Shown here one piece after another: positions 3,625 to 62,959 of a DNA stretch of 64,000 nt; position 1 is the first letter of the stretch, and the number at the start of each line of letters is the position of its first letter. The position numbers and the translations under genes are program-made. The DNA comes from Malassezia japonica (Eukaryota > Basidiomycota > Malasseziomycetes > Malasseziales > Malasseziaceae): NCBI RefSeq assembly GCF_029542785.1, contig NC_083371.1:186001-250000 (forward strand). The letters run 5' to 3'. The notes below the pieces were generated by a model. It saw nothing but the letters and a program-made list of their open reading frames with translations. It made no database searches and had not been told where the DNA came from.

Positions 3625-4417
3625 ATGGTCGGCGTCCGCAGGCTGTGTCTGCTGGCTCTCGGCGCGTGCGCGCTCGCGCACGCGCATCGCTCGAGCGTGG
3701 CGGATGCCACGGCGGTGCCGTCGTCGTCGGCGGCAATGCCGGCTCAGGATATCGGCGCGAGACGCGTCGCGGCCGCGTCGGATGCGCCCTATGCGTCGCG
3801 CGCCGCGGCCGCAACACCGACACTTGCCGCGCGCGCGGACGACAACAATGACGATACGCTGCCTGCAGGTGGTCTCACGGTGACCAAACCGCCGCAGAAC
3901 GCGGGCGAGTCGTACTACAAGATTGCGCCGCACGTCTCGGTCACGTTCGGGTGGTCGTACACGTCGCTCAAGACGACGCCTTCGCAGCTGTTTGTGGTCG
4001 CATCTTGCTCGCAGAACGGATACACGTATCCTATTGCGCCGTCGCCGTCGGGCATCCCGGGCACGGCGACCGACGTGACGTGGTACCCGTACGGCTACCA
4101 CATGAGCGCGCAAGGCAACGGGCAGCCAGACCTCGCTGCTGCCAAGTACCGCCTGTTGATCTACGACGAACAAGGGCCGTCTGCCGCTGCCAAAGGCGGG
4201 CGTTTCGCGCCGAACAATGGCGTGGAGTTTGCCATGTACTATCCCCAGGCTTATACCCCTCTGTCTGGTACGTTTTTTTTTTCTATCTCACACAGAATGG
4301 ACGTGCGGATCATGCAACGGTGCATCGTCCCTCTCTCCGCGATCGTCTGCGCTCGTTGCGTGGGCGATGACGCTGCTCACCGGCGTCCTCGCGGCGCTCG
4401 CGCTGTGGCCGGCGTAG
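3625..4417 (+). CDS. Secreted/cell-surface DUF7137-type protein
   Basis: Exons 3625-4267 and 4296-4417, 254 aa. The 28-nt intron (4268-4295) starts GTACGT and ends CTCACACAG; splicing joins ...YTPLS to EWTCGSCNG. The N-terminus (MVGVRRLCLLALGACALA) is a signal peptide. The middle carries the conserved fungal pattern KIAPHVSVTFGWSYTSL, VVASCSQNGYTYPIAP, DVTWYPYGY and FAMYYPQAYTPL. The last 16 residues are hydrophobic, which suggests a GPI-anchor signal or a terminal membrane anchor. I recognise this as the DUF7137 family, whose function is unknown to me. Unspliced, the exon 1 frame stays open into the next gene, so a naive scan merges two genes; the branch-point/acceptor pair and the hydrophobic tail argue for separate genes. 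A start at 3625 puts a CACGTG box 30 bp upstream. Confidence 0.7.
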
Positions 4418-4431
4418 TCCGTAGTGTTACT

Positions 4432-4437
4432 CACGTG
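4432..4437. promoter_or_regulatory. CACGTG box upstream of the zinc-finger gene
   Basis: TCACGTGAC lies 156 bp before the ATG at 4594, just after the DUF7137 stop codon, in a 176-bp tandem spacer. Confidence 0.5.
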
Positions 4438-4593
4438 ACGTACGCGTCGCGTATGGCGGATAGACTTCGGCCGAAGAGTGTTGTGGTTGCGCCTGGACCA
4501 GCGCACACAACCTTCCACCTGCAGCGCCGATCTACAACTGGCCTTGCGCTGGGTGCGCATCTCGATTTGTCAAGTTTGCGGCTCGCAACTTGC

Positions 4594-6471
4594 ATGCCAT
4601 TAGTGCCACCCCAACCTATGCTGCCTAGCACCACGCTTGAGTCGGCTGGCGGCCCACTGTCCGTCGGCGGGCCCCGCGAGCCCTGGATGTGGCCCGCACC
4701 CCCCATGCCTGGCGCCGGACTCCAAGCGCCGAACACGGCGTACTGGGAGATGAGCACAGCTACAGGCACAGAGCGCACTTCAGGATCCCCCTCACGCTAC
4801 ATGATGTACCGGGCCGAGGCCGAGCACGCTCAGCTCCTCGCCCACCAGTCCCAGCAGGCGGCGTCGCAGTTCTTTGGCACGCCGCAGGCACCCATGTACC
4901 CTTACGGCATGCCGATGCACCCCGAGGTGACACAGCACCTCCAGCGCATGGGCAACACGAACGGCTTTCCAATGATGCCATTTCCAAGCTACCCCATGCT
5001 CGACCAGACGCAGCTTCCCCTGATGATGCAGATGCCGCAGGCTGGCGTGGGGTACGTGCATGCCGAAGAGCATGCAGGCATGCTGCCTATGGACGCTGAC
5101 CGCCCGGACGCGGTATTTGACGATGCGTGGGAACGCCTGCGCAGCGAGGAGCCCGACCACGGCCGCGACGCCAACATGGACGAGCTGCTGGCGCTCTCCC
5201 GCCAGGCCCAGCTCGAGGCGGGCGGCAACTTGAACCTGTTTGTGTGCCCTCACTGCGAGAAGCGGTACGTTGGAAAGCATGCACGCAGCATCTGGCGCCG
5301 CCACCTCCAAGATAAACACAACATCCCCCTCAGCGTCCAGCCCCGGCGCACACGCTGGGACCGCGATGCAAACCGGCCGCGCAACGCCGAGGAGCGCCGC
5401 GAGCGCATGCTCGAGAGCAAGCGCCGCTGGGCACGGAAAAAGCGCGAGCAGGACCGCCGCCTGGCCCATGGCGACCTCGATCCGGAGCAGGCGTCCGCCG
5501 CCTCGGACACGCCCGCGCCCGAAGAGGTGCCCATGCCCCGGCCCGCGTCGCCCAAGGCGCTGCCGACACCAAAGCGCCCCGCGCTTGCCGTGCGCGACAC
5601 CAACGTACGCCCGACGCGCCTCGAGCTCGCCAAGTCGCCGCTCGTGGAAAAGGCGCCGGCGCCGGTGCTGCACTCGACGCCGCTGCGCGAGTGGCCGGCG
5701 AATGCGCTCGCCGCGAGCCCCGAGAATACGCTCGAGCCCAAGAAGCGCGTGGCTGCGCCTGCGTCGCTCACCAAGCGCAGTGCGCTGGACCGTGCTGCGC
5801 TTGCGTCCTTCTCGCGCGTAGATCCCTCGCCGCGGGTCTTTACACACAGCGCGTCGAAGCGCGACGCGCGCCTTGCGTACAGCGACCTGCTAGGCAGCCC
5901 CACCGCGCCGTCGATGAAGCGCTCCAACGACCAATTCTCGAGCCCGCAGCACCTGAACCTCACTCACTCGCTTGGCCTTGCGCCGCACTCTGCGTCGAAG
6001 AACGGAGGGATGTCGTCGATGTACTCGGGCATCAGCCTGACGCCGATGCAGGGCGGCATTACGCCGTACACCAAGGGGCCGCTCGGCCTCACGCCGACGA
6101 TTGGCGGCCTGCTGCGCGGCGACATGATGCCGAATGTCGGCGCGTCAAACGTCGGCGACCTGTCCTTGTCGAGCTACGTAAACTACACGGCGCTCGACAC
6201 GCCGTCGGTGGACATTGCCCGCAGCGCACGCCGCCGCGCGCGGCACGCAGACGCCTCGTTCCACTCCAGCTCGGAGCGGGAAGAAGAGGACTTGGACCAG
6301 GAACACGACCAACGCAACGCCTCCCCGTCGATTCGGAGCCGAGTACGCGCGTCGTCCAAGCCCCTTGCCCACGACACGCCTTCCAAGATGCCCCCGATGC
6401 TCCGCGCATCCAAGCTCCCGACGCCCCGCAGCCCGTGGCAGCGGACGCCCCACGCTCGCCGCTTCCGGTAG
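4594..6471 (+). CDS. C2H2-type zinc-finger protein, probable transcription regulator
   Basis: 625 aa from the ATG at 4594 (a second in-frame ATG at 4618 is possible). The N-terminal half is Pro/Met/Gln-rich. Near residues 215-240 there is one zinc-finger-like unit, CPHCEKRYVGKHARSIWRRH followed by LQDKH, with C-x2-C and H-x4-H spacing and a longer than usual loop. A strongly basic helix follows (ERRERMLESKRRWARKKREQ). The rest is disordered with many SP/TP sites, and the C-terminus has repeated LTP motifs (ISLTPMQGG, GLTPTIGG). The single finger plus basic segment suggests a nuclear DNA-binding role, but I do not recognise a named orthologue. The frame upstream of 4594 is open only because it runs through the intron of the preceding gene. 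SP/TP density suggests phosphorylation by CDK or MAPK (inference). Confidence 0.6.
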   Translation: MPLVPPQPMLPSTTLESAGGPLSVGGPREPWMWPAPPMPGAGLQAPNTAYWEMSTATGTERTSGSPSRYMMYRAEAEHAQLLAHQSQQAASQFFGTPQAPMYPYGMPMHPEVTQHLQRMGNTNGFPMMPFPSYPMLDQTQLPLMMQMPQAGVGYVHAEEHAGMLPMDADRPDAVFDDAWERLRSEEPDHGRDANMDELLALSRQAQLEAGGNLNLFVCPHCEKRYVGKHARSIWRRHLQDKHNIPLSVQPRRTRWDRDANRPRNAEERRERMLESKRRWARKKREQDRRLAHGDLDPEQASAASDTPAPEEVPMPRPASPKALPTPKRPALAVRDTNVRPTRLELAKSPLVEKAPAPVLHSTPLREWPANALAASPENTLEPKKRVAAPASLTKRSALDRAALASFSRVDPSPRVFTHSASKRDARLAYSDLLGSPTAPSMKRSNDQFSSPQHLNLTHSLGLAPHSASKNGGMSSMYSGISLTPMQGGITPYTKGPLGLTPTIGGLLRGDMMPNVGASNVGDLSLSSYVNYTALDTPSVDIARSARRRARHADASFHSSSEREEEDLDQEHDQRNASPSIRSRVRASSKPLAHDTPSKMPPMLRASKLPTPRSPWQRTPHARRFR

Positions 6472-6631
6472 CTTTGCTGCTGGTGTACTCTAATGTTGAA
6501 CAGCTGCTTAATGCACGCCGTCCACGTATCATTGGTCCACGATACCTCGTACACAGTACTGTATCCTGTTCCTACGGACAAGCTGTACGGATAATCATTT
6601 ACATAGTGCCTAGGAATCCTTTCTCCTCCAC

Positions 6632-7711: not shown

Positions 7712-7723
7712 CCTCCACATACC

Positions 7724-9955
7724 ATGGCGCAGCTCGTGTAGGTAGAAAGGCTGATGTAGGACGCTCGCGACCTGCTCGCTGAACCAGTGGGCGCTGGACT
7801 TTGACGGGAACCGCGATAGGATTGCCGCGTCGATCCGCGAGGCGAAGGAGAAAGGGTGCACGCTGCGCACCGGCCCCGAGCTCGAGATTCCGTACGTGGA
7901 TTGACTCACACAGGGGATATGGCGTACGTCGCACTTCTCACCCAGTGTTACGACCACTTTCTCGAAGCGGATACCGAGCTGCACTCGTGGGAGGTGCTTG
8001 CCGAGCTTCTGAGCACGGACCTGACCGACGGCATCCTGTGCGATGTCGGCATGCCGATCGCGCACCACGCCGTGCTGTACAACTGCCGTGTGACGGTTGC
8101 GAACCGCAAGGTGGTGCACATCCGGCCCAAGATGTGGCTTGCCAACGATGGAAACTACCGCGAGATGCGCTGGTTCACGCCGTGGATGCGCCCCCACGTC
8201 GTCGAGGACTACCTCCTTCCGGACGCCATCCGCGCGGTGACGCAGCAGCACAAGGTGCCGTTTGGCGACGCACTGCTCGCTCTCCAGGACACGGTCGTCG
8301 GCGTAGAGCTGTGTGAGGAGCTATTCACTGCTGCGAGCCCGCATATCGCCCAAAGCCTGCACGGCGCCGAGATCATCCTCAACTCGAGCGGGAGTCACCA
8401 CGAGCTGCGCAAGCTGCACCGCCGTGTCGAGCTGATCAAGGAGGCGACGCTCAAGTCGGGCGGCGTGTACCTCTACGCAAACCAGCGGGGATGCGACGGC
8501 GACCGTCTGTACTACGACGGCTGTGCGATGATTGCGGTCAATGGCCAGATTGTCGCGCAGGGCGCGCAGTTTTCGCTCGACGACGTCCAGGTCGTCACCG
8601 CGACCGTGGACCTGGCCGAGGTGCGTGCGCACCGCACGTCCAAGAGCCGCGGCATGCAGGCCGCGTGGATGCAGGCGGGCCACGGCGGTATGCTCCCCGG
8701 CGGCCCTGCGCGCGTCGACGTTCCCCTGGCGCTGTCGACGCCTGCGTCGCAGTTTACGCTCGCGGACCTCGCCAAGGCCGCGCCGTCACCTGCGATCGAT
8801 GTGCACTATGCGACGCCGGAAGAGGAGATCGAAAAGGGGCCGGCCTGCTGGCTCTGGGACTATCTCCGCCGCTCGCGGACGCAGGGTTTCCTGCTGCCCC
8901 TCTCGGGCGGCATCGACTCGTGTGCGACGGCGATGATTGTGCACAGCATGTGCCGCATCGTGCATGCTGCGTGCACCGACGACGCGACGCCGGCCGCGAC
9001 GCGCGAGCAAGTGCTAAGCGATGTGCGCCGCATCGCGCAGCACGACGCGCCGTGGGTGCCTGCCTCGCCCCAAGCCATTGCCGAGCGCCTGTTTGTGACG
9101 TGCTACATGGGCACGACCAACTCGAGCAACGAGACGCGGTCGCGTGCGCGCGACCTTGCGTCTGCCATCGGATCGTACCACTATGCGTTTGACATTGACT
9201 CGGTCGTGGGTGCGGTACTGGGTCTGTTTACGGCGGTGACGCAGCGCACGCCGCGCTTCAAGGTGCACGGCGGGACGCCTGCCGAGAACCTTGCGTTGCA
9301 GAATATCCAGGCGCGCTCGCGCATGGTGCTTGCCTACCTCTTTGCGCAGCTCGCGCCGTGGGCGCAAGGGCGCCAGGGCGGCCTTTTGGTGCTTGGCAGT
9401 GCCAACGTCGACGAGAGTCTGCGGGGCTACCTGACCAAGTATGACAACTCGGCCGCGGACCTGAACCCCATCGGCGGCATTTCCAAGACGGACCTGAAGC
9501 GCTTTATTGCGTATGCATCCGAGGCGTACGCGATGCCGATCCTGCGGTCGTTCCTCGACGCGCCGCCCACCGCCGAGCTCGAGCCGATCACCGAGTCGTA
9601 CGTGCAGAGCGACGAGGCGGATATGGGCATGACCTACGACGAGCTGTCCGTCTTTGGGCGCCTGCGCAAGGTCGCCAAGTGCGGCCCGTACAGCATGTTT
9701 GTAAAGCTTTTGCCGATGTGGACGCCCACGCTCTCCCCCGAGCAGATCGCGGCCAAGGTCAAGCTCTTCTTCTTTGAGTACGCGCGCAACCGGCACAAGA
9801 TGACGACGCTCACACCGTCGTACCACGCCGAGTCGTATGCGCCGGACGACAACCGCTTCGACCTGCGCCCCTTTCTCTACCCCAGCCACTTTGCGTACCA
9901 GTTCCGCAAGATTTATGCGCTGGCCGCCAAGCTGCAAGGCAAGGCGGACGCCTAA
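7724..9955 (+). CDS. QNS1: Glutamine-dependent NAD+ synthetase
   Basis: Makes NAD+ from nicotinic acid adenine dinucleotide with ATP and glutamine-derived ammonia. Four exons: 7724-7737, 7760-7891, 7914-7923 and 7946-9955, giving 721 aa, close to the roughly 714 aa of yeast Qns1. All three introns are 22 nt. Splicing is forced by the protein: exon 1 plus exon 2 give [19 protein letters not shown], and exons 2-3-4 give [20 protein letters not shown], the conserved nitrilase-domain start. Exon 3 is only 10 nt. The N-terminal nitrilase/glutaminase domain has the nucleophile in ELCEELF at Cys175. The C-terminal synthetase has the PP-loop [13 protein letters not shown] near residue 372. The stop codon lies 5 nt from the convergent reductase stop. 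Two introns contain in-frame stops, and the third shifts frame, so retention would be inactivating. Confidence 0.97.
7914..7923 (+). other. QNS1: 10-nt micro-exon (exon 3 of QNS1) between two 22-nt introns
   Basis: The ten bases GGGATATGGC complete the PGYG motif of the glutaminase active-site region. They are flanked by introns 7892-7913 and 7924-7945, each starting GTACGT and ending CTCACACAG or CTCACCCAG. Skipping this exon would both shift the frame and delete an invariant motif. Confidence 0.85.
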
Positions 9956-9960
9956 GCTAC

Positions 9961-10966
9961 CTACTGCGCCTTGGCCAGGCGCTCGGCCTTGCGGATCGCG
10001 GCGCGGCGCGTGGCGACATTCACGTCTGCGTAAGTTGTAGAACGTACCGTAGGACTTGCGGAGCAAGAGGCCCGCAGGCACCACGCGCGCCGTCGCCCAG
10101 TCGAGCCACGCGTGCGCCGGCCACGGCGTCAGGGTAAACGGACGGCCCAGGGCGCCCGTCGAGCGGCCGATGCGGCCGAGCGCCGCGGCGACGTACTGCG
10201 TCGGCAGCGGGATCATGGCAGAGGCGCGGCGCACCTTGGACATGCTGCTCACCACAAAGTAGGTGTTGAGCAGCTGGACGTCGACGTTTGCGCGGCGCAT
10301 CTCCTCACCGAGCGCCTGCGTCCAGCCGATGAGGAACGCCTTGGTGCCCGCGTAGGTCGCCATCATCGGCGTGCCCCACTGGCCGGTGAAGGAGCCGAGG
10401 TTGAGGATCAGGCCGCCCTTGCGGCGCACGAGGCGGGGCGCGACGAGCTTGGTGACGCGCTGCGTCGCAATGACGTTGACGTCGACAATGCGGTCCATCT
10501 CCGCCTCGGCCATCTCGACAAACGACACGGGCATGTCGTGCGATGCACCGACATTGTTCACCAGCACCGACACATCCAGGTGGCTGATGGTGCGCTCCAG
10601 GCCCTCGTACTCGGCCGGTCCCGCGCTGGCAAAGTCCATCGCGTAGTAGGTCGTCTTGGTGCCGACGTACTTGCCTTCGATCTCGCGGCCGAGCGCCATG
10701 AGCTTCTCTTGCGTACGGCTCACGAGCACAATGTTGAAGCCGGCAGCGGCGAGCTGCAGCGCAAACTCCTTGCCGATGCCGTCCGTGGCGCCGGTGACGA
10801 GCGCCCAGGCGCCGGCGCCGCGCATCTTGGCGTTCGCGCCGTAGCGCGTAAGCTTCTTTCCGGGAAGCACATGAATCTCTAGCACGAGATACGCAAAGTA
10901 CAGCGCGGCAAGGGCCACAACCGCAATGCCTACGACCGCAAAGCTCAGCAGGCACGGACAGACCAT
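9961..10966 (-). CDS. IFA38: Very-long-chain 3-ketoacyl-CoA reductase
   Basis: Exons 10048-10966 and 9961-10025 with one 22-nt intron (10026-10047), 327 aa. The enzyme reduces 3-ketoacyl-CoA with NADPH in the ER very-long-chain fatty acid elongation cycle. The N-terminus has a transmembrane helix (about residues 5-28). The SDR fold follows with cofactor motif [10 protein letters not shown], structural NNVG, and the catalytic Ser, Tyr and Lys in [10 protein letters not shown] and [10 protein letters not shown]. Splicing replaces a frame-shifted end by [20 protein letters not shown], a basic cytosolic tail typical of the family. The start (ATGGTCTGTCCG) is only 32 bp from the divergent MED25 ATG. 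The stop is 5 nt from the convergent QNS1 stop. Confidence 0.93.
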
Positions 10967-10998: not shown

Positions 10999-13083
10999 AT
11001 GGCGCCGGTCGGCTCGCCAGGCCTCGGCAAGGCGTCGCCAGGCATGCAGGGCGAGAGCCCGCGCATGCCCGAGGTGCTGCTCGTGTGCCTGATGCACGAC
11101 AGTGCGGCACTGCGCTCGCGCTGGAACGAGCTCGCAGAAGGCGCGCTGGGGCCGCTGTTTTGCGCGCTGTCGGCGCTCCAGCGCGAGTCGCGCCTGCTCG
11201 TCGGCGGCGTGCTGTACCGCTCCGAGCCGAGTGGCGACTTGGACGCGCTCTTGCGCCCGAGCGAGAGCATGCAGCGCATCCCCTTCCTGCCCGCGCCGCG
11301 ATTCTGCGCGCGCGTCGGCCAGGCCATCCAGGACAGCTCCGCGCTGCAGCTCGTGCAGCTCGACGAGACAGGGGGGGGCGCGTGCCCGCTCGCCGACAGC
11401 CTCGCGGCGTCGCTCGAGATGCTCGACGCGCGCGACTCGCCGCAGCACATAGCGCCGTTTGCGCGCGCAGCGCTGCGCGCCAACTTTTCGCCGGTGCTCG
11501 CAAAGCACTTCGTGCACGTCGTCGCGCTCGATACAGCGAACGATACGCTGCCGATGCGCCTCGCGCCACTGCAGCCGGTGCTCAATACGAATGCGGCGTA
11601 CGATGCGCTGGACGCCCAGGCGCTCGTCGCGCGCCTCAACGAGCGCCCAGAGACCATTGCGACGGTGCTCAGCGCCAAGGGCGGCAGCCACCGCGCGCGC
11701 GCGTCGCTCGCACGCGCCGCGCACGACCTGCTCTGCACGCGGCCCGCGGCGGACAATGTGAGCGCCAAGGAGCTGTTTGGCACGCAGTGGAAAATGCCCG
11801 AGCACCTCGACATCCTCGTGAGCGGCGCAGAAGTCGCGCGCGAGCTCCGCAAGCACGCGCGTGCGCCGAGCGAGGCGCCGCGCACGAAGCGCACGCGCTC
11901 GACCGACTCGCCGATGAACGCCGCGGCCCTTGCGCCGTCCACCAAGATCGACCAGGCGGCGCTCTCCAAGGTGCTCTTGCTGCAGCAGCAGCAGTCGACC
12001 ATGCTCAAGAACCTCGGCCAGATCGCCGCAGCACAGGGCGGGGGCGCAGGGGCCGGCACGCACCTCCAGGGGCAGATGCTCGAGCAGATCCGCCAGCAGC
12101 GTACGTATCCACACTCACGCAGTCCTCTCGCAGCAAGAGGCGATCAAGACGCAGGCCGAGCAGCTGCGCCTCGGCAAGCAGTCCAACTTTAACCTCATCC
12201 TCCAGGCGCTGATCAATATAGACAAGGAGGCTCGCGAGGCGGGCATCCAGCTCGGCGGGCCGAGCAGCATGCTCGGCCAGGCCAAGGCGCCGGCGCAGCC
12301 GGCCCCGGCTCCGGCGCAGCCCGAGAACAAGACGCGTTCCTTCTGGCAAGGCATCGTCAAGTGGGGCCCCGCAGGCCAGGGCGACGAAAACATGTTTACG
12401 CTCGTCGTCGCCTCGACGGTGCACTTTGATGCACAGCAGCAGGCGCTCGCCCTCCCGTGGCCGAACCTGCTGTCGGTCAGCGCGTTTGTGCCGGCCGCGC
12501 CAAGCGAGCTGCAGAAGCTCATTGCCTCGCGCCGCGTGCCGTGCGTCCTAATGACGCTGCGCGCCTTTCCACCAAACATGGCGGTGCGCGGCTCGGAAAA
12601 CAACGAGCGCAACTACCGCACGCTCGCGGCGATGCTCCTACAAAACCAACGTGCGGCCTATATTGCCCACGGCGCGCCGCAGTGCGGCCTGCTCCTCGCG
12701 GCGGTCAGCCGCCGGTCGGGGGGGCCGCCGCAGCTCCTTGCGCTCGTATTCCAGAGTGCGGTGCCTTTTGCGCAGCTCGCCGCACAGACCAGCGCAGCGT
12801 CGGCGGCGAATACACGGGGGATGATTGCGATGCCGCAGGCACCGGCGACGCCGCTGCCGACCGCGCCTTTTCCCCAAAACGACGGCATGGCAAGCATGCC
12901 TACGCCTACGCCTGCACCGCCCGCCACACCGTCCGTGTTTCCGATGTTGCAGACGATGCCGTTCGCCCAGCCGGCGCTGAATCCGACAGATTCCCTGACG
13001 CAGCTCTTGGGCCAGACACCGGCACCGGTGCAGCAGCCCAATGCGGACTTGCAGACCGTCCTTCTGCAGCAGCTCCTGGGGCA

Positions 13084-13221: not shown

Positions 13222-14111
13222 ATGGCCGGGAGCGGACGAGTGTCTCCGGTGCTGCTGCCGGCGAACGAGTACCTGCAGGCGATGCAGGCCAAGTACCCTG
13301 CGCCCTCTCCTGCAGCGGAAGCATCGCGGCGGAAGCGGCGCAACCGCATGTCGCTCTTTTCGCGGCAGCCGATGAACTGCGAGGGGGGCTGGAAAGGGTA
13401 CGAGCGCATCGTCGGCTTCGACACGATGCCCGACGCCGAAGACACGGTGAGCCGCAGCGCGTCGTACACGCTGCAGGTCAAATCAGTTGGGTATGCACGT
13501 ACGAAGCACACGCGCACGTTCATGTGTGCGGTCGACGCGACAGAGAGCAGCGAGCGCGCGCTCGAGTGGATTATGGAAAACTTGGTCGACGACGGCGACG
13601 AGATCGTCGCGGTGCGTGTGCTCGACGAGGAGCAGGACAGTACGTCATTTCTCTTACACAGACATGAGCCAGGAGAATGCTCGCGACGGTGCACGCTCGC
13701 TGATTGCGTCGATTGTCGAGCTCAACGACGAGACACGCAAGGTGCGTTGCGCGTCTGACCCAGATTTCTATCACCGTCGAGTTCCTCACCGGCTCGATCA
13801 AGTCGTCAATCCTGCGCCTTGTTACCATGTACCGCCCGGAAAGCCTCACGATCGGCACGCGCGGCAAGCAGGTCAGCGCACTCGAAAAAATGCTCGGCAC
13901 GACGCCGCTCGGCAACTTAAGCAAGTCGCTGATTTGGCAGTCGCCCGTGCCGGTGATTATCGTACGGCCCGAAGACCGTGTGCAAAAGCATCTGTCGAAG
14001 CGCATGGCCGATCCCCGCCGCCACGAGTACTACGACTTGGTGCAGCACAATGAACAGCTGCCGATGAGTCTGCCGCCGAACAGCGAGGCGCAGGCAGAGA
14101 TGCGCAAGTAG
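13222..14111 (+). CDS. Universal stress protein (USP/UspA)-domain protein
   Basis: Exons 13222-13639, 13662-13741 and 13764-14111, two 22-nt introns, 281 aa. Residues 1-90 are a basic, disordered leader. The UspA fold starts at HTRTFMCAVDATESSERALE, continues through DDGDEIVAVRVLDE, and after both introns through SITVEFLTGS and LVTMYRPESLTIGTRGKQ. The nucleotide-loop region TRGKQ...LIWQSPVPVIIVRPED matches the USP ATP-binding class loosely. The middle exon is 80 nt and encodes the helix NMSQENARDGARSLIASIVE. Fungal USP proteins are poorly characterised; stress response is only the family label. The start codon follows CTCCACCTCCACC, and the upstream stop codon is only 20 nt away, so the leader must overlap the MED25 3' end or the two genes share a transcript (inference). 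Confidence 0.85.
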
Positions 14112-14259: not shown

Positions 14260-15875
14260 ATGCCGGAGCCGACAGAGCGGCTGGTGGTCGTTTCCAACCG
14301 GCTGCCGGTCACGATCAAGATGGATCCGAGCGTGCCAGGCGGCTTTGCATTTAGCAAGTCGTCCGGCGGTCTCGTCTCTGCCCTGCGCGGGACAAAGAAA
14401 ACCATGGACTTTACGTGGATTGGCTGGCCAGGACTGAGCGTCCCTCTGAGCAGCATCCCCTATATCGAGACGACTCTGCGTGAAGAGTACCAGTGCAAGC
14501 CCGTATGGATTCCTGACGAGCTTGCAGAGCGGCACTACAATGGCTTCTCGAACTCGATCCTCTGGCCGCTCTTCCACTACCACCCCGGCGAGATGAACTT
14601 TGACGAGGAAAACTGGCTGGCGTACCGCGAGGCGAACAAGCGCTTTGCCGAGACCGTGCGCTCGGTCCTGCGCCCTGGCGACCGCGTATGGGTTCAGGAC
14701 TACCACCTGATGTTGCTCCCTCTCATGCTCTCCGCGATTCTCGAAGGCAACGACATTGACGAGATCGTGCCGAGGGACTGTGCCAAGATCGGCATGGCGC
14801 ACGGCTCCTACTCGGACCTGGTGTCTGAGTCGATTTCCGAGGTTTCCCACACGCCCGAGTGCTCGCCGCGGCGCAAGGATATCAAGATCGGCTTCTTCCT
14901 GCACACGCCCTTCCCCAGCAGCGAAGTGTATCGGTACGTGGTGCGACTAACCCAGTATCCTGCCTGTGCGACGCGAGATTTTGCTCGGCATTCTGCACTG
15001 CGACCTGATTGGCTTCCACACGTACGACTATGTGCGCCACTTTCTCTCGTCGTGCGCGCGCATCCTCGGCCTGCCGACCTTTCCCAACGGCGCTGACTTT
15101 TGCGGGCGCCGCGTGCAGGTGCGCACCTACCCTATCGGCATCGAGCCCGAGCAGTTTGAAGAGGCGCTCTGTAAAGACACGGTGCGCGAGCGCATCGCCG
15201 CGCTGGCGCGCCGCTTTGCAGGCGTCAAGATCATTGTGGGCGTCGACCGCCTCGACTATATCAAGGGCCTCCCACAGAAGCTCCAGGGCCTCGAGACCTT
15301 TTTCGAGGAGCACCCCGACTGGATCGGGCGCACGGTGCTGGTGCAGATTGCGGTGCCTTCGCGCCAGGATGTGGAAGAGTACCAAAACCTGCGTGCGACG
15401 GTCAACGAGACGGTCGGCCGCATCAACGGCCGCTTTGGCACGGTCGAGAGCCTGCCGATCCACCTCCTGTACCGCTCCGTGAACTTTGACGAGCTCTGTG
15501 CGCTGTACGCGGTGAGCGACGTGTGCCTTGTGACCAGCACGCGCGACGGTATGAACCTCGTTTCGTACGAGTACGTCGCGTGCCAGCAGGAGCGCAACGG
15601 TGTCATGGTCCTCTCCGAGTTTGCCGGCGCCGCGCAGTCGCTCAACGGCTCGCTGATCGTCAACCCCTGGGACCGTTTCGCGGTGGCGGACGCCATCCAC
15701 CAAGCGCTGACGATGAACCCCGAGGCGCGGCGCATGAACTCGGAGAAGCTCATGCGCTATGTAAAGAAGCACACCGCGTCCTGGTGGGGACGCAGTTTCG
15801 TGGAAGAGTACGTATCGCAACTAACGCAGCCTCGGACGGGCCGGTGGCCAATGTACCACAATAGAGCATGCATAG
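14260..15875 (+). CDS. TPS1: Alpha,alpha-trehalose-phosphate synthase (UDP-forming)
   Basis: Exons 14260-14933, 14956-15807 and 15830-15875, two 22-nt introns, 523 aa. This GT20 enzyme joins UDP-glucose and glucose-6-phosphate to trehalose-6-phosphate, the first step of trehalose synthesis. Landmarks are VVVSNRLPVT at the N-terminus, VWVQDYHLMLLP, IGFFLHTPFPSSEVYR joined by splicing to ILPVRREILLGILHCDLIGF, GVDRLDYIKGLPQKL, and the C-terminal TSTRDGMNLVSYEYVACQ and VLSEFAGAAQSL. The segment around residues 170-200 (IVPRDCAKIGMAHGSYSDL) is an insertion compared with ascomycete Tps1 as I remember it. The last exon is just 46 nt and encodes DLGRAGGQCTTIEHA. The start is preceded by CTCCACAAATCCACC. 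The stop is one base from the convergent BolA stop. Confidence 0.96.
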
Positions 15876-15876
15876 A

Positions 15877-29006: not shown

Positions 29007-29100
29007 TGGACACGACGGGATTTGAACCCGCGACCTACCGCTAGTGCACTTCTCCGAAGCGGATGCAAAGCGGACGTGGTAACCACTCCACCACGCGCCC
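29007..29100 (-). tRNA. tRNA-Ala(TGC) with a 21-nt intron
   Basis: Acceptor stem GGGCGCG pairs with CGTGTCC and includes the G3:U70 pair that identifies tRNA-Ala. The D arm is GTGG/CCAC, and the T arm is GCGGG-TTCAAAT-CCCGT. The anticodon loop reads TTTGCA, then an intron (29043-29063), then A and the 3' stem GCGGT, giving anticodon TGC. The intron contains GTGCAC, complementary to the anticodon bases, as expected for splicing endonuclease substrates. Position 27/43 is a T-T mismatch. The mature length is 73 nt including discriminator A. A Cys reading (anticodon GCA) needs a six-base variable loop and lacks the G3:U70 logic, so I prefer Ala. Confidence 0.8.
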
Positions 29101-50253: not shown

Positions 50254-51105
50254 ACCATGAGTGCCAACGGATGATGGACAGTGGAGCCGACTGGCTTCAT
50301 ATGGGTGTGTTTCCCCCCGCTGATGCAGACATTATGGACGGGCATTTCGTGCCCAACATTGTGCTGGGTGCGCCGGTGCTCAAGTCGGTGTACAAGGCGC
50401 TGCCGCATATCTTTATGGACTGCCATATGATGGTGTCTGAGCCTGCAAAGTGGATCAAAGACATTGCGGACGCGGGTGGCAAATCGTATACCTTCCACCT
50501 CGAGGCGACGGGTAGGTTTCCCTACTAATGCAGACGACCCCCTCGATGTCATTCGCCAGATCAAGACGGCCAATATGCGTGCATCGATTGCGATCAACCC
50601 CGGCACGCCCGCGAACGAGATCTCGGACGAGATCGGCAAGGCGGTCGACATGATCCTCGTCATGACCGTGTGGCCCGGCGCAGGCGGCCAAAAGTTTATG
50701 AAAGAGTGCATGCCCAAGGTCGCCGAGCTCCGTGCGCGTTTCCCGGAGCTAGACGTGGAAGTCGACGGCGGCGTCGGGCCCAAGACGATCGACCGCTGTG
50801 CGGACGCCGGCGCGAACGTGATCGTGGCCGGCACCGCCGTGTTTAACCACTCAGACCCCAAGGCCGTGATTGCTTTTCTGCGCAAGCAGTGCGAGCGGGC
50901 CCAGGAACGCATCCGCGACGAGCGCGAGCGCATCGCCAAGGGCGAGTCGATCGAGGAGGTGGACAAAAGCAAGGGGTATACTTCCGGATCCATCACCCCA
51001 TGGTCGCACCCACGTGTATACATGCCACGACGCCGCAGCTCAGGCTCGCGCTCACCGCCCGCAAGCAAGTTTGGCGCGAGCATCACCATGCAGCCCATCC
51101 ACTAG
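50199..51105 (+). CDS. RPE1: Ribulose-5-phosphate 3-epimerase
   Basis: Exons 50199-50304, 50329-50511 and 50534-51105 (introns 24 and 22 nt), 286 aa. It interconverts ribulose-5-phosphate and xylulose-5-phosphate in the pentose phosphate pathway. The TIM barrel is marked by KIAPSVLASDLGNLNHEC, WLHMDIMDGHFVPNI (formed only by removing the in-frame 24-nt intron), FMDCHMMVSEP, LVMTVWPGAGGQKF and EVDGGVGPKTIDRCADAGAN. The 24-nt intron has no stop and would insert eight residues beside the metal-binding His-Asp if retained. The C-terminal extension after about residue 232 (VDKSKGYTSGSITPWSH... to TMQPIH) is about 50 aa longer than usual and may be a read-open artefact or a lineage tail. Confidence 0.95.
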
Positions 51106-52377: not shown

Positions 52378-55306
52378 ATGGCCTGGCGTGGCGGACCGGC
52401 CAAGGCGCGGTCGACGACGCGTCTGCCTGCAGCGCTGCGTGAGGAGCTTGGGCTTGGCGAGAATGGCGCACCGGAGTCGGGGCGGCGGCCGAGCGCGAAG
52501 CGCCCACGTCTGAATGCGGCAGCAGCACGCAAAGAGCAACGAAAAGAGCAGCGTCACGCAAAGCATGGACGCAAACCGACACAGAAGCGCGATGCGTGGC
52601 GCCAGGAAGAGGCGCAGCGCTCGGTACAGAAACAGCGCGAACCTGCTCCTGGGCCAAAGGCGCCGCAGCCGAAAGCGCCGCAGCCAAAGGCGGCACCACA
52701 GCCCAAGGCGGCACCCAAAGCGGCGCCCAAGCCAAAAAAGAGCAAGGCTGAACCGGAAGAGATGCGCACAGTCATGGATCCCATCACGGGTGAAATGCGT
52801 ACAGTGACACAAAAGAAGGCGTCCAATGGGCCGTCCAAGCTCGAACAGCTCATGGAGCGCACTGGCCAGCGCCCGCTCAACGAACAAGAGCCGGTCGAGC
52901 GCCAGCGGCCGATGACGGCTGCCGAAAGGGACGAGGAAGACGAGATCAAGTGGCTCGAGTACCAGCTATATGGAAAAAAGAAGCGTGCGGCTCCTGAAGA
53001 GACGGACGATTTGGATTGTATGTGGTTGAGCTGACACAGACTTGCTCGACGATTTGGATAAGCTGCAGGCGGGACTTGATCAAGAGGCCGCGGCGAAGGA
53101 GGGCGACGCGGAGGGCGACGAGGATGGAGAAGAGGGTAATGAGGAGGGAGATGAGGAAGAAGAGGAGGGAGAAGAGGAAGAGGACGAGGACGAGGATGAG
53201 AAGAATGGAGAGGAAGAGGAAAATGACGACGACGACGACGACGACGATGACGCTGACGACGACGACGCTGCATCGGACGAATTCGAGTTTGCCGACGACG
53301 ATACCGACACGTACGACGTCGCACTGAACAAGGAAGGCCTCGATGACCTCGACAACCTCGATGTCGACCTGGACGAAGACGACCTCGGCGGCGACTTCGA
53401 CGACCTGGACGAGGCCCTCGACACGATGGAGCACGATGCATCCCCCTCTCCGCCTCCTGAAGCACCGAGCGGCCCCTCCAAGTACGTCCCTCCTGCAATG
53501 CGCGCAGCTGCCAAGGAAAAAGACGAAGCGCATGCGCTGCAGCAGCAAAAGCTGCGCCGCCACGTCAACGGTCTGCTGAACCGTCTTGGTGAAGGCAACC
53601 TCGATACCATTCTTGGCGAGCTCGATGGACTGTACCGCACGTATGCGCGTGGCGACGTGACGTCGATGCTCACGACGCTTGTCCTCGACACGGTGGCGGC
53701 GCGTACGCAGCTGAGCGAGACGATTGTCGTGCTGTACGCCGTGCTCATCACTGCGATGCACCGCATTGTCGGTGTCGAGTTCGGCGCCTACTTTCTGCAA
53801 GAATGCATGTCGCGTTTCCTGCGCGTCTACAACGAGCTCCTCGCGCGCCCCTCTGCGTCCGACGAAGACAAGAGCGCGGGGAGCCGCGAGTGCGTCAACC
53901 TTGTGCTGCTGCTGTGCCACATGCTGAACCACAAACTGCTGTCTGCCGGCCTGATCTACGACCTCGTGCGCCTCCTCCTCGGCTACGACTTTAGCGAGAT
54001 GCTGCCGAATGTCGCCACGCCCAAGCCCATGGCCGAAGTCGATATTGAGCTTGTGCTGCGCATTGTACAGAGCTGCGGCCAGCAGCTGCGGCGCGATGAC
54101 CCAGCCTCGCTCAAGACCATTGCCGAGCTGACCAAGGAGCGCTTGGATGAGGCGAAGAGCAACACGTCGCTTGTCGCTGACTCGAGCCGTGCGCGGTTCA
54201 TGCTCGAGGCGCTGCTCAACCTGCGCCAGAACAAGAAGCAGCAGCAGGCGTCGTCTGCTGCCGAAAGCGCGCAGCGCCTCGGCAAGTATCTCTCGACGCT
54301 CGAAAAGAAGCGCACCCTCCGCACGCACACCGCCCTGCAAGTCGGTCTGCGTGATCTCCAAGACGCCGAAAAGAAAGGACGCTGGTGGCTTGTCGGCGCT
54401 GCGTGGACCGGGCACGAGCCGAGCGCGCCTGCGCCCGAGCCCGAGCGCGAAACGGTGCAGGACGAGACGTGGCTTCCCGACGATGCGACGACGTCGTCGG
54501 TCGACGTCGGAGCCCTCGCGCGGTCCCAAGGCATGAATACGGACGCGCGCCGCGCCGTCTTTTCGACGCTCATGACCGCGCTGGACTACAAAGAGGCCGC
54601 GCAGAGCCTCATGCAGCTCAAGCTGAACGATGTGCAGCGGCGCGAGATTATCCGCGTGCTCGTGCACTGCCTCGGCAGCGAGCAAGTGTACAACCCCTAC
54701 TATGTGCTGATCGGCCAGCAGCTCGCCGAGGACCTCCCTGGCATGCGTATCACGATGCAGTTTGTGCTGTGGGACTACTTCCGCGAGATTGGCGAGACGC
54801 ACGTCGGCGGCGAAAAGATCACTGCGCAGCTCGAGGACGACGCGGCGCCCGAGGTCGATGGGGCCGACGGCAAGCGCAAGCTCGTGCACCTCGCGCGTGC
54901 CTATGGCTACTGGATCGGGCACCAAGCGCTGAGCCTCAATGTCCTGCGCCCGGTCGACTTTACCAGTATTAAGGCGAACGGCGTCCGTTTTGTGCAGCAG
55001 CTGCTCACGCATGCGCTGCTCGCGACGCAGACCAAGTCGCCGGTGCTCACGCCGGCGGTGCGTACGCGCCTCGCAAAAGAGCCGAGCGTGTCGGACCGGA
55101 GCGCGGTCGAGCGCCTCTTTGTCCAAGGCACGGTCGGCCACCCTGCGCTGGCGCAGGGCCTGCTCGTCTTTTTGCGCACGCATCTGCGCAAAAAGGACCT
55201 CGCGCAGGCGCTCGGTGCGGGCGACAGCGCGCTCGGTCGCCTGCGGTGGGCGGCGCGTATTGCGATTGATACCGTGACGGTCGGCTCGACGTCGGCTGCT
55301 GCATAG
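52378..55306 (+). CDS. SGD1: SGD1/NOM1-type MIF4G-MA3 nucleolar protein
   Basis: Exons 52378-53017 and 53040-55306, one 22-nt intron (donor GTATGT), 968 aa. The N-terminal region is basic with QPKAPQPKAAPQPKAAP repeats. The junction joins EETDDLD to YLLDDLDKLQ. A long Glu/Asp tract follows (about 240-300). The MIF4G domain starts near KLRRHVNGLLNRLGEGNLD and continues through YLQECMSRFLR-like helices and LRIVQSCGQQLRRDDP. The MA3 domain is near 700-830 (AVFSTLMTALDYKEAAQSLM, YYVLIGQQLAEDLPGMR). Yeast Sgd1 functions in 18S rRNA production (family knowledge). The leader contains CTCCACACTCCAC and a T run. The stop TAG abuts the ROK1 stop with no gap. Confidence 0.93.
53090..53280 (+). repeat. 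SGD1: Low-complexity GAG/GAC tract encoding the acidic segment of SGD1
   Basis: Mostly GAG, GAA and GAC/GAT codons over about 190 bp. Nucleolar proteins often carry such acidic runs. Confidence 0.7.
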
Positions 55307-56926: not shown

Positions 56927-56970
56927 CGTGGAAGGGAGCCACTTTTTGCTTACCAAACCTCCACTTGTGC

Positions 56971-58731: not shown

Positions 58732-61700
58732 TTAGAGGTCTACTGCGCGGCGCGCCGTGAGGAGCGCATGCCCAAGCGCATGCGGCTCCGTCTCCAACAA
58801 TGATTGTACATGATAGGCAAACGAATCGGCACTGGGTTAGTAGGGCGACGTACTCTGCATTGCCGTACACGGCCTCGACCTGCACGGCGCTCGCGAGCAC
58901 CGGCGGCTCGGCCGCGAGGTGGATCGGAATCGTGACACGGAGCTTGGCCTGGGCAGTGTCGAGCAGGACCGTCGCGACGGCCTCGAGCGTTTCGCCGTCG
59001 TCGGTGAGGCGCACGTCGATCGGAAAGTGAGCGCGTGCTCTGGCGAGGTCCGCGGACAGCGCGCGGCACACACACCAGTACTGCGCGACGGTGCGCAAGA
59101 CATCCGGCACCTGCGTCGCGGCCGCGGCCTTGACCTGCGCACGGATCACGGCGAGCGCCGCACGGTGCATCGGCGTGGCGGCAACCGACGACAGCGGCGA
59201 GATGACGGCACGCTTCACGCCGCCGCGCCGTGCGTCCAGCTCGAGCGTGACTTGGAGCGCATCGCAGTGCGTCAGCTGCAGGAGCGTCGAGGTGCTGTTG
59301 GCGATGCGCCACTGCATCAGACGCTCCACGTGCTCGACCTGGCGCTCGAGGCGCACCGCCTCGCCGGGCGAGCACCCCTGGATCTGCTGGCTGATCGCCC
59401 GCGCCGCGCGGATCGCCTCACTTGCCTCTTTGATCTTGCTTGTGGTCTCGTCGACACGCCCTTGTACGCGCGTGAGCTGGCTGACAGCGTCGTTGTGCGC
59501 GGTGCGCACGCCTTGCAGGTAGGCGTCCTGCTCGTCGATCTCCTCGTACAGCGTGCGGAGCTCGTCGGGGTCGCAGTTGGCGATCGCCGCCTGGCGCTCC
59601 TGTGCCGTGGCGAGCTTCTTGGCAAGCGCCGCATGGTGCGCGCGCAGCGGAGGCAGACACGTGTTCACGAGGCGCGCACGTCGCTCGTCGACCGCGAGCG
59701 CGTCGCGCCGCAGCAGGTTGCGGTGGTGCGCAAGGAACGCAGCCTGGTCCTCGTCAAACTGCATGTCTGTGCGCCAGCCGTAGTAATCTGTCATTGCCGC
59801 AGCGCGAGCGGCCTGCTTGTGCACACTCAGCTGGCTCTTGAGATTGCGCCGCACGTCGCCGTCGGGCAGCTGGCTCCATTCCTGCACAAAGACGGGCGGG
59901 CGCGTAAAGAAGTCGGCCTCCATCGCCTGCAGACGCTCCCTGCCTTCTTCAATGTGCTGTTTCAGCTCGGCACACGCGTTGCGCAGCGTACGCAGCATCG
60001 GCGCCGCACCGCTCGCCAGGCGCGCCGCATCGATGAGCGAGAGGGACGCAGTGCGCTGGGCAGACCGCTCGATAAACGTCCGCGACGCCGTCATATTGTC
60101 GTGGAACGTCAGGTCGATCAGGTGCAAGAAGTCGTCGAGGTGCATATGGAACGAGGTATCGGCAATGCTCTCGTCCATATCGCGCATCGGCGACGAGATT
60201 CGGCCGCGTTGGCGGAGCATCGAGTGGATAAAGGGGGAGCGGGGGAACGCCATGCCTTCTGTGCCCCCGATCGACGCACGCGCAGGGCCGGCGGGACGCA
60301 CGGGCGACGGGCGCCGCGCGGTCGCAAACGCGACGGGCGTGCCGGACGGAGGCGTCTTGGGCACGATGCGCTTCGCGGGTGAGTGCTTGTACTCGGGCGA
60401 TGGGACGCCGCCGCGCAGCGACTGCCGATAGCGCGAGGGCGTGCTCGGCGAGCCTTGCAGCGCATGCGGCGTGCTGCCCTTTTGCGACGGCGGCGTACTC
60501 GGCTCCGCCTTGAAGCGCGGCGTGCTCGGCTCGGTTTTGGGGGGCGGCGTGCTCGGCTCGGCCTTGTACGAGTTCAGCACGCTCGGCGCCTTGATCGGCG
60601 ACATGGCCTTGGGCATGCCGGGCGACTTGAGGGGCGACTTGATCGTGGGGGTGCTCGGCGACTTGACCTTGGGAGTGCTCGGCGACGCAGCACGGGGCGT
60701 TGCACGCTGCATGCGCGGCGTGCTCGGCGACCTGATTTGCTCCTCGGTAAGGAGCATCGTCTGGCGGCGCTCCGGCGAGCGTTTCGGCGAGTCGCGCTCC
60801 GGCGTCGACGGCGCTGACCGCGCAGCCTCGGCAAACTGACCCCAGACGGCCGTCATTTCCATCGCCGACTCGTTTGCGCTCGACACGCCCGTGGTATCCA
60901 TCGAGGCGGAGGCGTCCGCAGAGGCGTCCGCAGAGGCGTCGGCGGACGTATCGACCGATGCATCCGGCGCCGCGCGAAAGGCGGCCGTAAACTGCATCGA
61001 CTCGGACATGTCGCTCTCGTCAGCATCCTCCTTCCACGCCTGCGTCATTTCCATCGTCTGGCTGGCGTCGCTCTCGTCTGCACCCTGTTCCCAGGCGCGT
61101 GTCATTTCCATCGTCTGGCTTGCGTCGCTCTCAAACGAGTCGGCCGTGAGATCCATCGAGACCTCTTCCGAGGTATCCGCGCCGCTCGGCACCGGCGAGC
61201 CGCGGTCCATGAGCTGCTGCGCCGGGCGTATGCTCATCGTCGGCTCGTCCTGCTCAAAGTCGGTCTTTTCCTGGTGCGCACTAAAGGTAACTCGGCGCTG
61301 GCGGCGAGCCTGCTCGATCTCGGCGCTTGGCGGGATCGCAATCGTGTGCTCCTTGCGTGCGCTCAGCGGCCCGGTCGGCCCGGTGGCCTTGGACGGCGAC
61401 GCCTTGGACGGCGACGCCTTGGATGGCGACGCCTTGGACGGCGAGTGCAGCAGGGCCGCGTACGGGTTCGGGAGGCCAGGCGACTGCATCGGCATATCGA
61501 CGAGCCCCTGCAGCGACGCGCGCGTCGTCGACTCGACCATATTTACGATATCCTCACTAGGCATCCGGATATGCGCCCGCTCGACGTTTGGCCCGAGGCC
61601 TGTCGGGCTCTGAAACACTTGCGGCGTCGCGCGAATGGCACTTTTGCGGGGCTGCGTTAGCGGAAAAAAACATACTCGTGCGCGGCGCTCGGGGCTCTTG

Positions 61701-61810: not shown

Positions 61811-61857
61811 GGTCGAGATCAACCTCCACGCGCTCCCAAACAACACGACGCGTTCGT

Positions 61858-61863
61858 CACGTG
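61858..61863. promoter_or_regulatory. CACGTG box in the SPC7/DUS1 divergent promoter
   Basis: GTCACGTGATACCATG: the box ends 5 bp before the DUS1-type ATG (61869) and is 47 bp upstream of the SPC7 ATG. Confidence 0.55.
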
Positions 61864-61868
61864 ATACC

Positions 61869-62959
61869 ATGCGGCCGTGGTTTCAGTACGGCGCGGCGCC
61901 GATGGTGAACCAGTCGGACGTCGCGTTCCGGCTGACGGCCGTGCAGTACGGCGCCACGGCGACGTGGACGTATGTCGCTCGGCTTATGCAGACAAATGTA
62001 TACAGTGCCGGATTTGGACGATAGAGAGACGTGGGAGGGACTCGTGCGTGCGCTCGAAATTGGGCGCGCCGCGCCCGAGAACCGCGACGTGGTCTCGGGC
62101 GAGCCTGCGCGGCAGATTGTGCAGCTCGCGGGCGACGATGGCGTGGCGCTTGCCGCGGCGGCTAGGCGCCTCGCGCCGTACGCGGACGGATTCGACGTCA
62201 ACCTCGGTAGGTTGCGTGGCTTATGCAGGGTGTCCCCAGCGCCGCGCACAGGAGGGACACTACGGGGGCTACCTGTTAGGGCAGCGGGACTGGCCGCTGG
62301 TCGAGAGTATCAGTACGTCGTCATGCTCACCAGCCTCGGCGCTCGTTCATAGCACGCCGCTCCCGGTCTCGGTCAAGCTGCGGCTGTGCGACTATGCCGC
62401 GGATACGCCCGCGCTGGCCGTCCGGCTTGCGCGCGCCGGCGCAGCGGTCGTCACGCTGCATGCGCGGCACGTCGCGCCGAACCGGCGGCGCGCCAACGCC
62501 GCGAAGCTCACTTACGTCTACGACGTGCGCACGGCCCTCCTCGACGCAGGGCTGCATGCGTCACAGCCCGGCGGCCACTGCCATGTGCTGAGCAACGGAA
62601 ACGTGCGCGGCTGGGCGGATGTCGTGGCGAACCTGGGCGCGACGCACGCCGACGGCGTCATGGTCGGCGAGCCGCTGCTCGAGCAGCCGCACCTCTTTGC
62701 GCCGTCGGTCCAAAAAAAAGCCACTGCACTCGACGCGCTGGACACCTATCTTGGCCTGTGCGAGGCCTACCCCCACGACAGCTTGCCGATGCAGCGCGTG
62801 CACCAGCATGTACAGTACATGATCAAAGGCGGCTTTGCGCCGAGCCGCGAAACGCGGCAGCTCCACGATACCCTGCGCAGTGCGCCCGACGTCGCGACGA
62901 TGAGAAGGGATGTTGTACACTATGCTACTCGGCCCTGCGCTGCCGCTCCGCCTCCATAG
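61869..62959 (+). CDS. DUS1: tRNA-dihydrouridine synthase, DUS1 type
   Basis: Exons 61869-61969, 61992-62206, 62229-62312 and 62334-62959 with introns of 22, 22 and 21 nt, 341 aa. The flavoenzyme reduces uridine 16/17 of tRNAs (family knowledge). Spliced landmarks are YGAAPMVNQSDVAFRL, ATWTQMYTVPDL across the first junction, FDVNLGCPQRRAQEGHYG across the second, and VESITSALVHSTPLPVSVKL across the third. NLGCPQ-A-GHYG is the DUS1 subfamily pattern. VTLHARHVAP and ADGVMVGEPLL follow. The 21-nt intron is in frame without a stop, so retention would insert seven residues. The last 35 nt overlap the coding end of the next gene on the opposite strand. Confidence 0.94.

Follow-up and report, generated by a model that had tools for sequence, protein, structure and literature searches.

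The stretch of DNA considered here is a window of 64,000 nucleotides (nt) from Malassezia japonica (C2:186001-250000, within a searched genome of 8,433,779 bases on nine contigs), whose genes are interrupted by very short presumed spliceosomal introns, mostly exactly 22 nt long. Candidates were collected with a motif scan for a donor GT[AG]NG[TA], a branch element CTNA with its A at position 15 or later and a terminal YAG, in segments of 18-32 nt with a tail (the bases after the branch A) of 3-6 nt. CTNA was required but its position was left free. The scan gave 37 rows, 32 shared with frame-based gene models and 5 outside them. Two of these 5 were kept on protein homology (15808 on the plus strand and 16036 on the minus strand), and the rows at 7756 (plus), 39335 (minus) and 45558 (plus), lying outside gene models and lacking homology support, were dropped. 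Gene-model calls of 20-30 nt that failed the motif (44790, 45464 and 55280 on the plus strand, 33027 and 16383 on the minus strand) were left uncounted.

The 34 accepted introns comprised one of 21 nt, 23 of 22 nt, three of 23 nt, three of 24 nt and one each of 25, 26, 27 and 28 nt. An earlier note on this DNA had placed 33 introns, with four of 23 nt and one of 24 nt; those figures are revised here, and its twenty-three introns of 22 nt were recovered without change. GTACGT was the donor in 21 introns (20 in that note) and GTAGGT in 6, as counted before. In 23 of the 23 introns of 22 nt, CTNAY occupied positions 14-18 with the A at 17, the arrangement that had been described. The features are as follows.

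4268..4295, plus strand: 28-nt intron, A at 23, tail 5, T-run in the spacer; motif and gene model.
7738..7759, plus strand: 22-nt intron 1 of QNS1 (NAD synthetase); gap-free PDB 6ofb alignment over the junction.
7892..7913, plus strand: 22-nt intron 2 of QNS1; PDB 6ofb alignment, spliced peptide GPELEIPGYGCYDHF common to M. vespertilionis P0114.
7914..7923, plus strand: 10-nt QNS1 exon flanked by 22-nt introns; PDB 6ofb alignment.
7924..7945, plus strand: 22-nt intron 3 of QNS1; PDB 6ofb alignment, coding in database protein P0113.
10026..10047, minus strand: 22-nt intron; motif and gene model.
12101..12122, plus strand: 22-nt intron; called by a hidden Markov model (HMM) without signal model, motif.
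13640..13661, plus strand: 22-nt intron; called by the HMM without signal model, motif.
13742..13763, plus strand: 22-nt intron, donor GTGCGT; called by the HMM without signal model, motif.
14934..14955, plus strand: 22-nt intron 1 of TPS1 (trehalose-6-phosphate synthase); gap-free PDB 8fhw alignment, same peptide in M. furfur P0233.
15808..15829, plus strand: 22-nt intron 2 of TPS1; outside gene models, spliced end SFVEDLGR as in M. furfur P0233.
16015..16036, minus strand: 22-nt intron 3 of the BolA gene, donor GTACGA; outside gene models, Pfam BolA score raised from 49.0 to 101.8 bits.
16078..16099, minus strand: 22-nt intron 2 of the BolA gene; removal raises the Pfam BolA score from 21.9 to 49.0 bits.
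16162..16183, minus strand: 22-nt intron 1 of the BolA gene; removal takes Pfam BolA from no hit to 21.9 bits.
20784..20805, minus strand: 22-nt intron; motif and gene model.
22973..22999, plus strand: 27-nt intron, A at 21, tail 6; motif and gene model.
27298..27319, minus strand: 22-nt intron of a zinc-finger gene (named by sequence appearance); motif and gene model.
27794..27815, minus strand: 22-nt intron of an RNA-recognition motif (RRM) protein that we take to resemble Rsd1/RBM39; gene model, stop at amino acid 406 unspliced and 482 spliced.
29248..29270, minus strand: 23-nt intron, A at 18, tail 5; motif and gene model.
30193..30216, minus strand: 24-nt intron, A at 19, tail 5; motif and gene model.
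30354..30376, minus strand: 23-nt intron, A at 18, tail 5; motif and gene model.
31172..31193, plus strand: 22-nt intron of a presumably glycosyltransferase-like gene; called by the HMM without signal model, spliced frame open to amino acid 619.
39008..39033, minus strand: 26-nt uridine kinase intron, tail 6; Pfam PRK (82-264) spans junction residue 250 of the spliced protein.
39609..39631, minus strand: 23-nt uridine kinase intron, branch CTAAA; unspliced frame stops at amino acid 68.
44365..44386, minus strand: 22-nt intron of NDUFS1 (complex I 75 kDa); gap-free PDB 7zm7 alignment over residue 75.
44963..44987, plus strand: 25-nt intron, A at 20, tail 5; motif and gene model, weaker, branch CTAAG.
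46500..46521, minus strand: 22-nt intron, donor GTGTGT; motif and gene model.
50305..50328, plus strand: 24-nt intron, C-run in the spacer; motif and gene model.
50512..50533, plus strand: 22-nt intron; motif and gene model.
53018..53039, plus strand: 22-nt intron, donor GTATGT; motif and gene model.
58832..58853, minus strand: 22-nt intron; motif and gene model.
61652..61675, minus strand: 24-nt intron, T-run in the spacer; motif and gene model.
61970..61991, plus strand: 22-nt intron, donor GTATGT; motif and gene model.
62207..62228, plus strand: 22-nt intron; motif and gene model.
62313..62333, plus strand: 21-nt intron, A still at 17, tail cut to 4; motif and gene model.

Protein continuity across the junctions

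Removal of the introns restored the protein in TPS1, QNS1, NDUFS1, the BolA gene and uridine kinase; the remaining genes were supported by reading frame only. TPS1 spliced at 14934 aligned with PDB 8fhw with no gap around junction residue 225, NDUFS1 spliced at 44386 was likewise gap-free against PDB 7zm7 around its junction, and QNS1 spliced at 7738, 7892 and 7924 showed no gap against PDB 6ofb over three junctions. The QNS1 junction peptide was GPELEIPGYGCYDHF in M. vespertilionis, identical to the spliced M. japonica peptide, and GPELEVPGYGCYDHF in Malassezia sp. CBS 17886. For the BolA gene, removal of 0, 1, 2 or 3 introns gave no hit, 21.9, 49.0 and 101.8 bits, respectively, against a curated cut-off of 25.7.

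Database protein P0113 is 100% identical to QNS1 over 93% of QNS1; it starts inside the 10-nt exon and reads the 7924-7945 intron as coding. Such genes will be modelled wrongly, in the manner of P0113, by gene finders whose minimum intron size is set higher. The QNS1 entries of M. obtusa and M. psittaci were also found without the N-terminal part. TPS1 (plus strand) and the BolA gene (minus strand) are convergent, their stop codons lying about 5 bp apart (15875-15881, derived by hand).

The 22-nt class across the genome

Intron lengths were measured on 284,000 bases, or about 3.4% of the genome: the window and, from contig C1, a further 220 kb taken as 22 pieces of 10 kb each. A first frame test on this question, with 75-nt windows and hard thresholds, gave 36 calls and no 22-nt peak; it was replaced by an HMM gene finder because the per-frame scores of the window candidates showed that the thresholds were too strict. 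The HMM was given nothing beyond GT and AG, the start and stop codons, and codon periodicity; intron length was flat over 12-250 nt. It called 225 introns, 32 of them 22 nt long, and every other length was called at most 4 times. When GA..AG, GT..AC, CT..AC or TG..GA was substituted for GT..AG in the same program, 1, 4, 5 and 5 calls were obtained at 22 nt. Donor and branch were unmodelled, yet 31 of the 32 blind 22-nt calls carried GT[AG]NGT, 31 carried CTNA with the A at 17, and all 32 ended in YAG. Among the 182 calls of other lengths of at least 20 nt, the donor was present in 26 and CTNA with a 5-nt tail in 23. Since many of the remaining 193 calls are likely to be false, the share of 22-nt introns among all introns cannot be read from the HMM. 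With iteratively learned donor and acceptor weights, 58 of 245 calls were 22 nt long. The trained HMM also gave an apparent excess at 27 nt (11 of 350 calls), which was rejected as a class: the sequences are a mix of credible introns, of 22-nt introns that run on to a later AG and of calls devoid of motif.

A motif scan of the same 284 kb (GT[AG]NGT, CTNAY, tail 5, length 14-80 nt) gave 142 matches, 93 of them of 22 nt; the reversed control gave 9. Over the whole genome GTACGT-N7-CTNAY-N-YAG matched 1102+1062 = 2,164 times on the two strands and the reversed pattern 1+1 times, and a 23-nt pattern with a 6-nt tail matched 71+67 = 138 times (control 1+0). Scaling the 93 motif-defined 22-mers by length or by GTACGT count gives an estimate of about 2,800-3,200 introns of 22 nt per genome. 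A narrow length peak of the order of 15-25 nt, as seen in genomes with uniform ultrashort introns, is present in the 284 kb where length was measured. That the segments look like spliceosomal introns and that the class extends over the genome was supported, with 2,164 genomic matches against 2 and both donor and branch in 31 of 32 blind calls.

The segments might instead be frameshift-prone, edited or misassembled pieces of coding sequence, as the reading of one of them (7924-7945) as coding in P0113 would suggest. Thousands of copies with one donor, branch and acceptor grammar, found again in 31 of 32 blind calls, and the match of the spliced peptides to those of other Malassezia where QNS1 and TPS1 junctions were compared make this hardly credible.

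Gene models of at least 60 amino acids (177 in number) contained 150 introns, some of them false. Those of 20-28 nt (n=113) were spread over the three phases (43/37/33). That a retained intron shifts the frame, as had been proposed, was upheld, but an in-frame internal stop occurred in only 35 of the 113. Introns were denser near the 5' end of the coding sequence (26 of 113 in the first tenth).

Register of the branch point

To describe the register, every GT[AG]NGT in the 284 kb was paired with CTNAY having its A at 11-30 and with a YAG ending 2-10 bases beyond that A. The A lay at 16 or less in 4 matches (5 in the reversed-sequence control), at 17 in 102 matches (control 1), 93 of them with a 5-nt tail, and at 18-30 in 49 matches (control 11). 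Tails of 6 nt were a minority (16 matches against 3 in the control, 14-80 nt). The rigid branch register was thereby borne out. Just three bases separate branch and AG, leaving no room for a polypyrimidine tract, as had been stated, and the 7-nt spacer upstream is not a tract either: its pyrimidine fraction was 0.54, and a pyrimidine run of at least 6 was found in 6 of 93.

The earlier suggestion of a spliceosome tuned to one fixed length does not fit this distribution, which has an edge on one side only, at A=17, keeps a 5-nt tail and extends upwards through growth of the spacer. Longer introns gain their length between donor and branch, and homopolymers of at least 5, sometimes T or C runs, were present in 8 of 30 longer spacers versus 1 of 93 spacers of 7 nt. 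In three introns of 21 nt and one of 20 nt the A stays at 17 and the tail is shortened; it is therefore the place of the branch A that is conserved, not total length. A true ruler, by which the spliceosome would measure total length and prefer exactly 22 nt under selection from both sides, could account for the sharp peak (93 of the 142 tail-5 matches) and for the 138 tail-6 patterns of 23 nt against 2,164 at 22 nt, a count that leaves tail-5 patterns of 23 nt aside. It is improbable given that introns of 23-37 nt carry identical signals, many of them in frame-based models, and that the 20- and 21-nt introns hold the register and give up tail. A floor for the branch A at position 17 or beyond, together with a nearly fixed 5-nt tail, is a better description than a fixed length.

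Uniform length and common motifs could also arise by recent spread, copies of a 22-nt introner-like element having been inserted repeatedly, and a weak excess of G and C at +8 and +9, respectively (0.56 each in 94 introns), might be taken in its favour. Introners, however, are copies that share sequence beyond the splice signals, and those known from other organisms are longer. The 7-nt spacers were nearly all distinct (88 among 94 introns, the commonest occurring 3 times), with no such sharing beyond the signals, and the spread over phases (43/37/33 of 113) also speaks against insertion. We regard this origin as very improbable.

The individual signals are weak or unusual. The top branch hexamer, GCTGAC, accounted for 16 of 126 branch sites, and a pyrimidine directly precedes the A in 51 of 126, where pairing with U2 is weak. 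Donor position +4 was C in 76% of 94 introns; canonical U1 would not pair with C there. Neither would this C pair with the ACAGAGA box of U6.

Spliceosome components

U2 RNA was found (L032) with a canonical GUAGUA, and U6 RNA with ACAGAGA intact; a compensatory U6 change opposite the unusual +4 C was therefore rejected. GT-AG boundaries with a 5' splice-site consensus, the mark of U2-type introns, were found (GT[AG]NGT in 31 of 32, YAG in 32 of 32), and CTNAY with the A at 17 is able to pair with GUAGUA around a bulged A. SF1 and Slu7 are present above curated cut-offs, and Cwc25 was identified through its Cir_N domain. Loss of SF1, U2AF65 or Slu7 was rejected, genes for each being present. 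The frame of SF1, the branch-point binding protein, is broken in a C-run (L037, about 1625-1665, minus strand), and its two Pfam SF1-HH pieces overlap; the break is possibly an assembly error.

U2AF65 in Malassezia

U2AF65 of M. japonica, 100% identical to MJAP1_004289, is supported in its identity by named U2AF relatives. Scoring of the 8,000 candidates that shared most words gave 112 relatives. The 18 closest (P0001-P0018; six named Malassezia, twelve assigned by rank) are called Malassezia-type, and residues were counted in these and in P0019-P0099, with P0100-P0112 and gapped rows left out. In human U2AF65 the RRM1 residues considered here contact the polypyrimidine tract. The RRM1 RNP2 Tyr (human position) was present in 3 of 18 Malassezia-type proteins versus 73 of 73 others, and its replacements were His in 6, Gln in 4 and Asp, Leu, Val, Arg and Trp in 1 each. 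The second RNP1 aromatic of RRM1 was Phe in 2 of 18 versus 74 of 76 others, and the first was aromatic in 9 of 18 versus 76 of 76. In RRM2 the RNP2 aromatic was present throughout (18/18 and 80/80), and the RNP1-like string in 14/18 and 78/81.

Mean pairwise identity among the 18, set against that among 15 other named sequences that we assign to Ustilaginomycotina, was 0.49 vs 0.70 in RRM1, 0.63 vs 0.83 in RRM2 and 0.64 vs 0.70 in the UHM. A P-value is withheld because the groups were picked after inspection of the data and the sequences are related. By these comparisons the RNA-reading half of U2AF65 is apparently more relaxed than the protein-docking half. The protein would keep its docking function, and pyrimidine reading by RRM1 would have been largely lost in the genus. 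RRM1 decay is a candidate molecular cause or consequence of tract-less introns.

We propose, tentatively and as something short of probable, that 3' splice-site recognition in Malassezia has been rebuilt tract-free, with a rigid 9-nt branch-AG unit, U2AF65 as a dock whose RRM1 would have stopped reading pyrimidines, and intron size set by a hard floor for the branch A at 17. Alternatively, an SPF45/RBM17-like UHM protein may replace the U2AF heterodimer on the tract-less introns. Erosion of the U2AF65 RRMs in Malassezia would agree with this, and there is a human precedent on short introns, where SPF45 substitutes for U2AF65 on truncated tracts via SF3B1 (passages of PMC8363638). The UHM of U2AF65, on the other hand, is kept at an identity of 0.64-0.65, and U2AF65 therefore probably still works somehow; by analogy with the human case, replacement is conceivable and rather unlikely.

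Introns at a probable geometric floor

Taking the patterns together, we consider it very probable that these are GT-AG introns of the U2 type compressed against a geometric floor. That the segments are spliced and that the A at position 17 is the branch nucleotide we infer from the signals and the restored proteins. Under this explanation the presumed branch A would come no nearer than position 17, and five nucleotides would then complete the intron in YAG. The 5' splice-site hexamer would occupy positions 1-6 and the U2-pairing stretch 12-18, with positions 7-11 between them, and this may be the shortest layout in which the M. japonica spliceosome can hold both. Deletion bias would drive introns down to 17+5=22; those with the A before 17 would go unspliced and hence unseen, and insertions would be accepted chiefly in the spacer. 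No polypyrimidine tract would be needed for the 3' splice site, branch and AG forming one compact unit, CTNAYNYAG, in which the AG is located by its fixed distance from the branch.

Several results weigh against this explanation or against the part given in it to U2AF65. The length distribution comes from 284 kb of 8.43 Mb (3.4%), and a minor class of conventional longer introns may exist beside the short one. U1 small nuclear RNA (snRNA) was not found genome-wide with Rfam RF00003 at E 0.001 and 10, with a 5'-end plus loop pattern or with ATACTTACCTG, although no control genome exceeded the RF00003 cut-off either, so that the failed search shows no absence. Yeast U1 differs as well, and U1 of M. 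japonica may have diverged, perhaps in a way that matches the GTACGT donor. A lost Cwc25 plug, as in Stentor, was rejected: the Cwc25 N-terminus read from the DNA is MGAGDLNMKKSWHP, and the plug is largely kept. The best U2AF_lg piece of U2AF65 scored 224 bits against a curated cut-off of 310. Aromatics persist in part in the RRM1 of Malassezia-type proteins (RNP2 Tyr in 3/18, RNP1 second in 8/18 and first in 9/18), and the identity drop in RRM2 about equals that in RRM1 though RRM2 retains its RNP2 aromatic. With P0019-P0085 as the broader reference set, with mean identities of 0.62 in RRM1, 0.77 in RRM2 and 0.55 in the UHM, the UHM comparison is reversed (0.64 vs 0.55). Pfam RRM_1 was rejected as a test of RRM1 decay, since in 3 of 4 non-Malassezia sequences, too, no more than one RRM stretch passes.

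Introns of the kind that textbooks show for fungi and animals are long enough to hold a branch point, a pyrimidine tract and small nuclear ribonucleoprotein footprints that lie apart. A yeast with SF1, U2AF65, Slu7 and Cwc25 genes that apparently removes thousands of 22-nt introns, with a hard floor for the branch A, makes minimum spliceosome geometry directly testable. If the tract-free proposal is true, M. japonica is a natural fungal example in which thousands of introns sit at a geometric minimum that can be measured.

Elsewhere in the window, two minus-strand tRNA genes (29007-29100 and 34942-35045) carry anticodon-arm inserts, probably tRNA introns.

Comparison with known systems

Malassezia are basidiomycete skin yeasts, and one annotation table used below, dated 2015, belongs by our assumption to M. 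globosa. Passages of published work describe 'very short introns' for the genus (PMC7426719), median introns of 30 nt in M. restricta and 40 nt in M. arunalokei (PMC9241646) and, in the 2015 table, an average intron of 79 nt (PMC4634964). The available passages of these three papers mention no floor, branch register or 22-nt mode, and the titles and abstract openings of the open-licence PMC matches listed tell of neither such a mode nor a branch register for Malassezia.

The 22-nt introns do not mark the lower size limit known, as the earlier note had it: shorter ones occur in Stentor (15-16 nt), mikrocytids (16-17 nt) and chlorarachniophyte nucleomorphs (18-21 nt) (PMC9505925, PMC10245619). 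In Stentor coeruleus the introns have their A at 10 of 15 or 11 of 16 (PMC9505925). The likeness is close, with thousands of near-uniform tiny introns, a fixed A followed by 5 nt and canonical U2 and U6 boxes. The A, however, stands at 10 in Stentor and at 17 in M. japonica; Stentor lacks a strong branch consensus, in contrast to CTNAY; the Cwc25 plug is lost in Stentor and largely kept in M. japonica; and U1 was found in Stentor and not in our searches. Since Stentor manages with the A at 10, position 17 is a property of the M. japonica spliceosome and no universal limit.

Mikrocytids have 224 introns of 16-17 nt, for which a balance of deletion bias and a functional threshold has been proposed (PMC10245619). 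They resemble M. japonica in the narrow size range and in the balance invoked, but they have a few hundred introns and a much reduced parasite spliceosome, whereas M. japonica has thousands, with SF1, U2AF65, Slu7 and Cwc25 present. Type B introns of Trichomonas vaginalis, of about 23-25 nt (PMC12316389), are similar in length and in a branch element fixed close to the 3' end; they differ in that only 24 are known, in an intron-poor genome with a second, longer class. The chlorarachniophyte nucleomorph introns of 18-21 nt, as relayed in PMC10245619, share a narrow size range, in the reduced genome of a relic nucleus, and the branch signature is absent in Bigelowiella natans (PMC2483917).

Highly constrained branch positions were reported by Irimia and Roy (2008) for some intron-poor species with strong branch motifs and for no others; this class has about 0.1-0.15 introns per gene or fewer and one hexamer in more than half of introns (PMC2483917). 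M. japonica shares the uniform branch position of that class; it is not intron-poor (150 introns in 177 models), and no branch hexamer is so widely shared (GCTGAC, 16/126). If the tract-free proposal is true, neither intron loss nor a strong branch motif is required for the branch position to become rigid in evolution. Uniform tiny introns are a known phenomenon; new here is a fungal case with a testable protein correlate.

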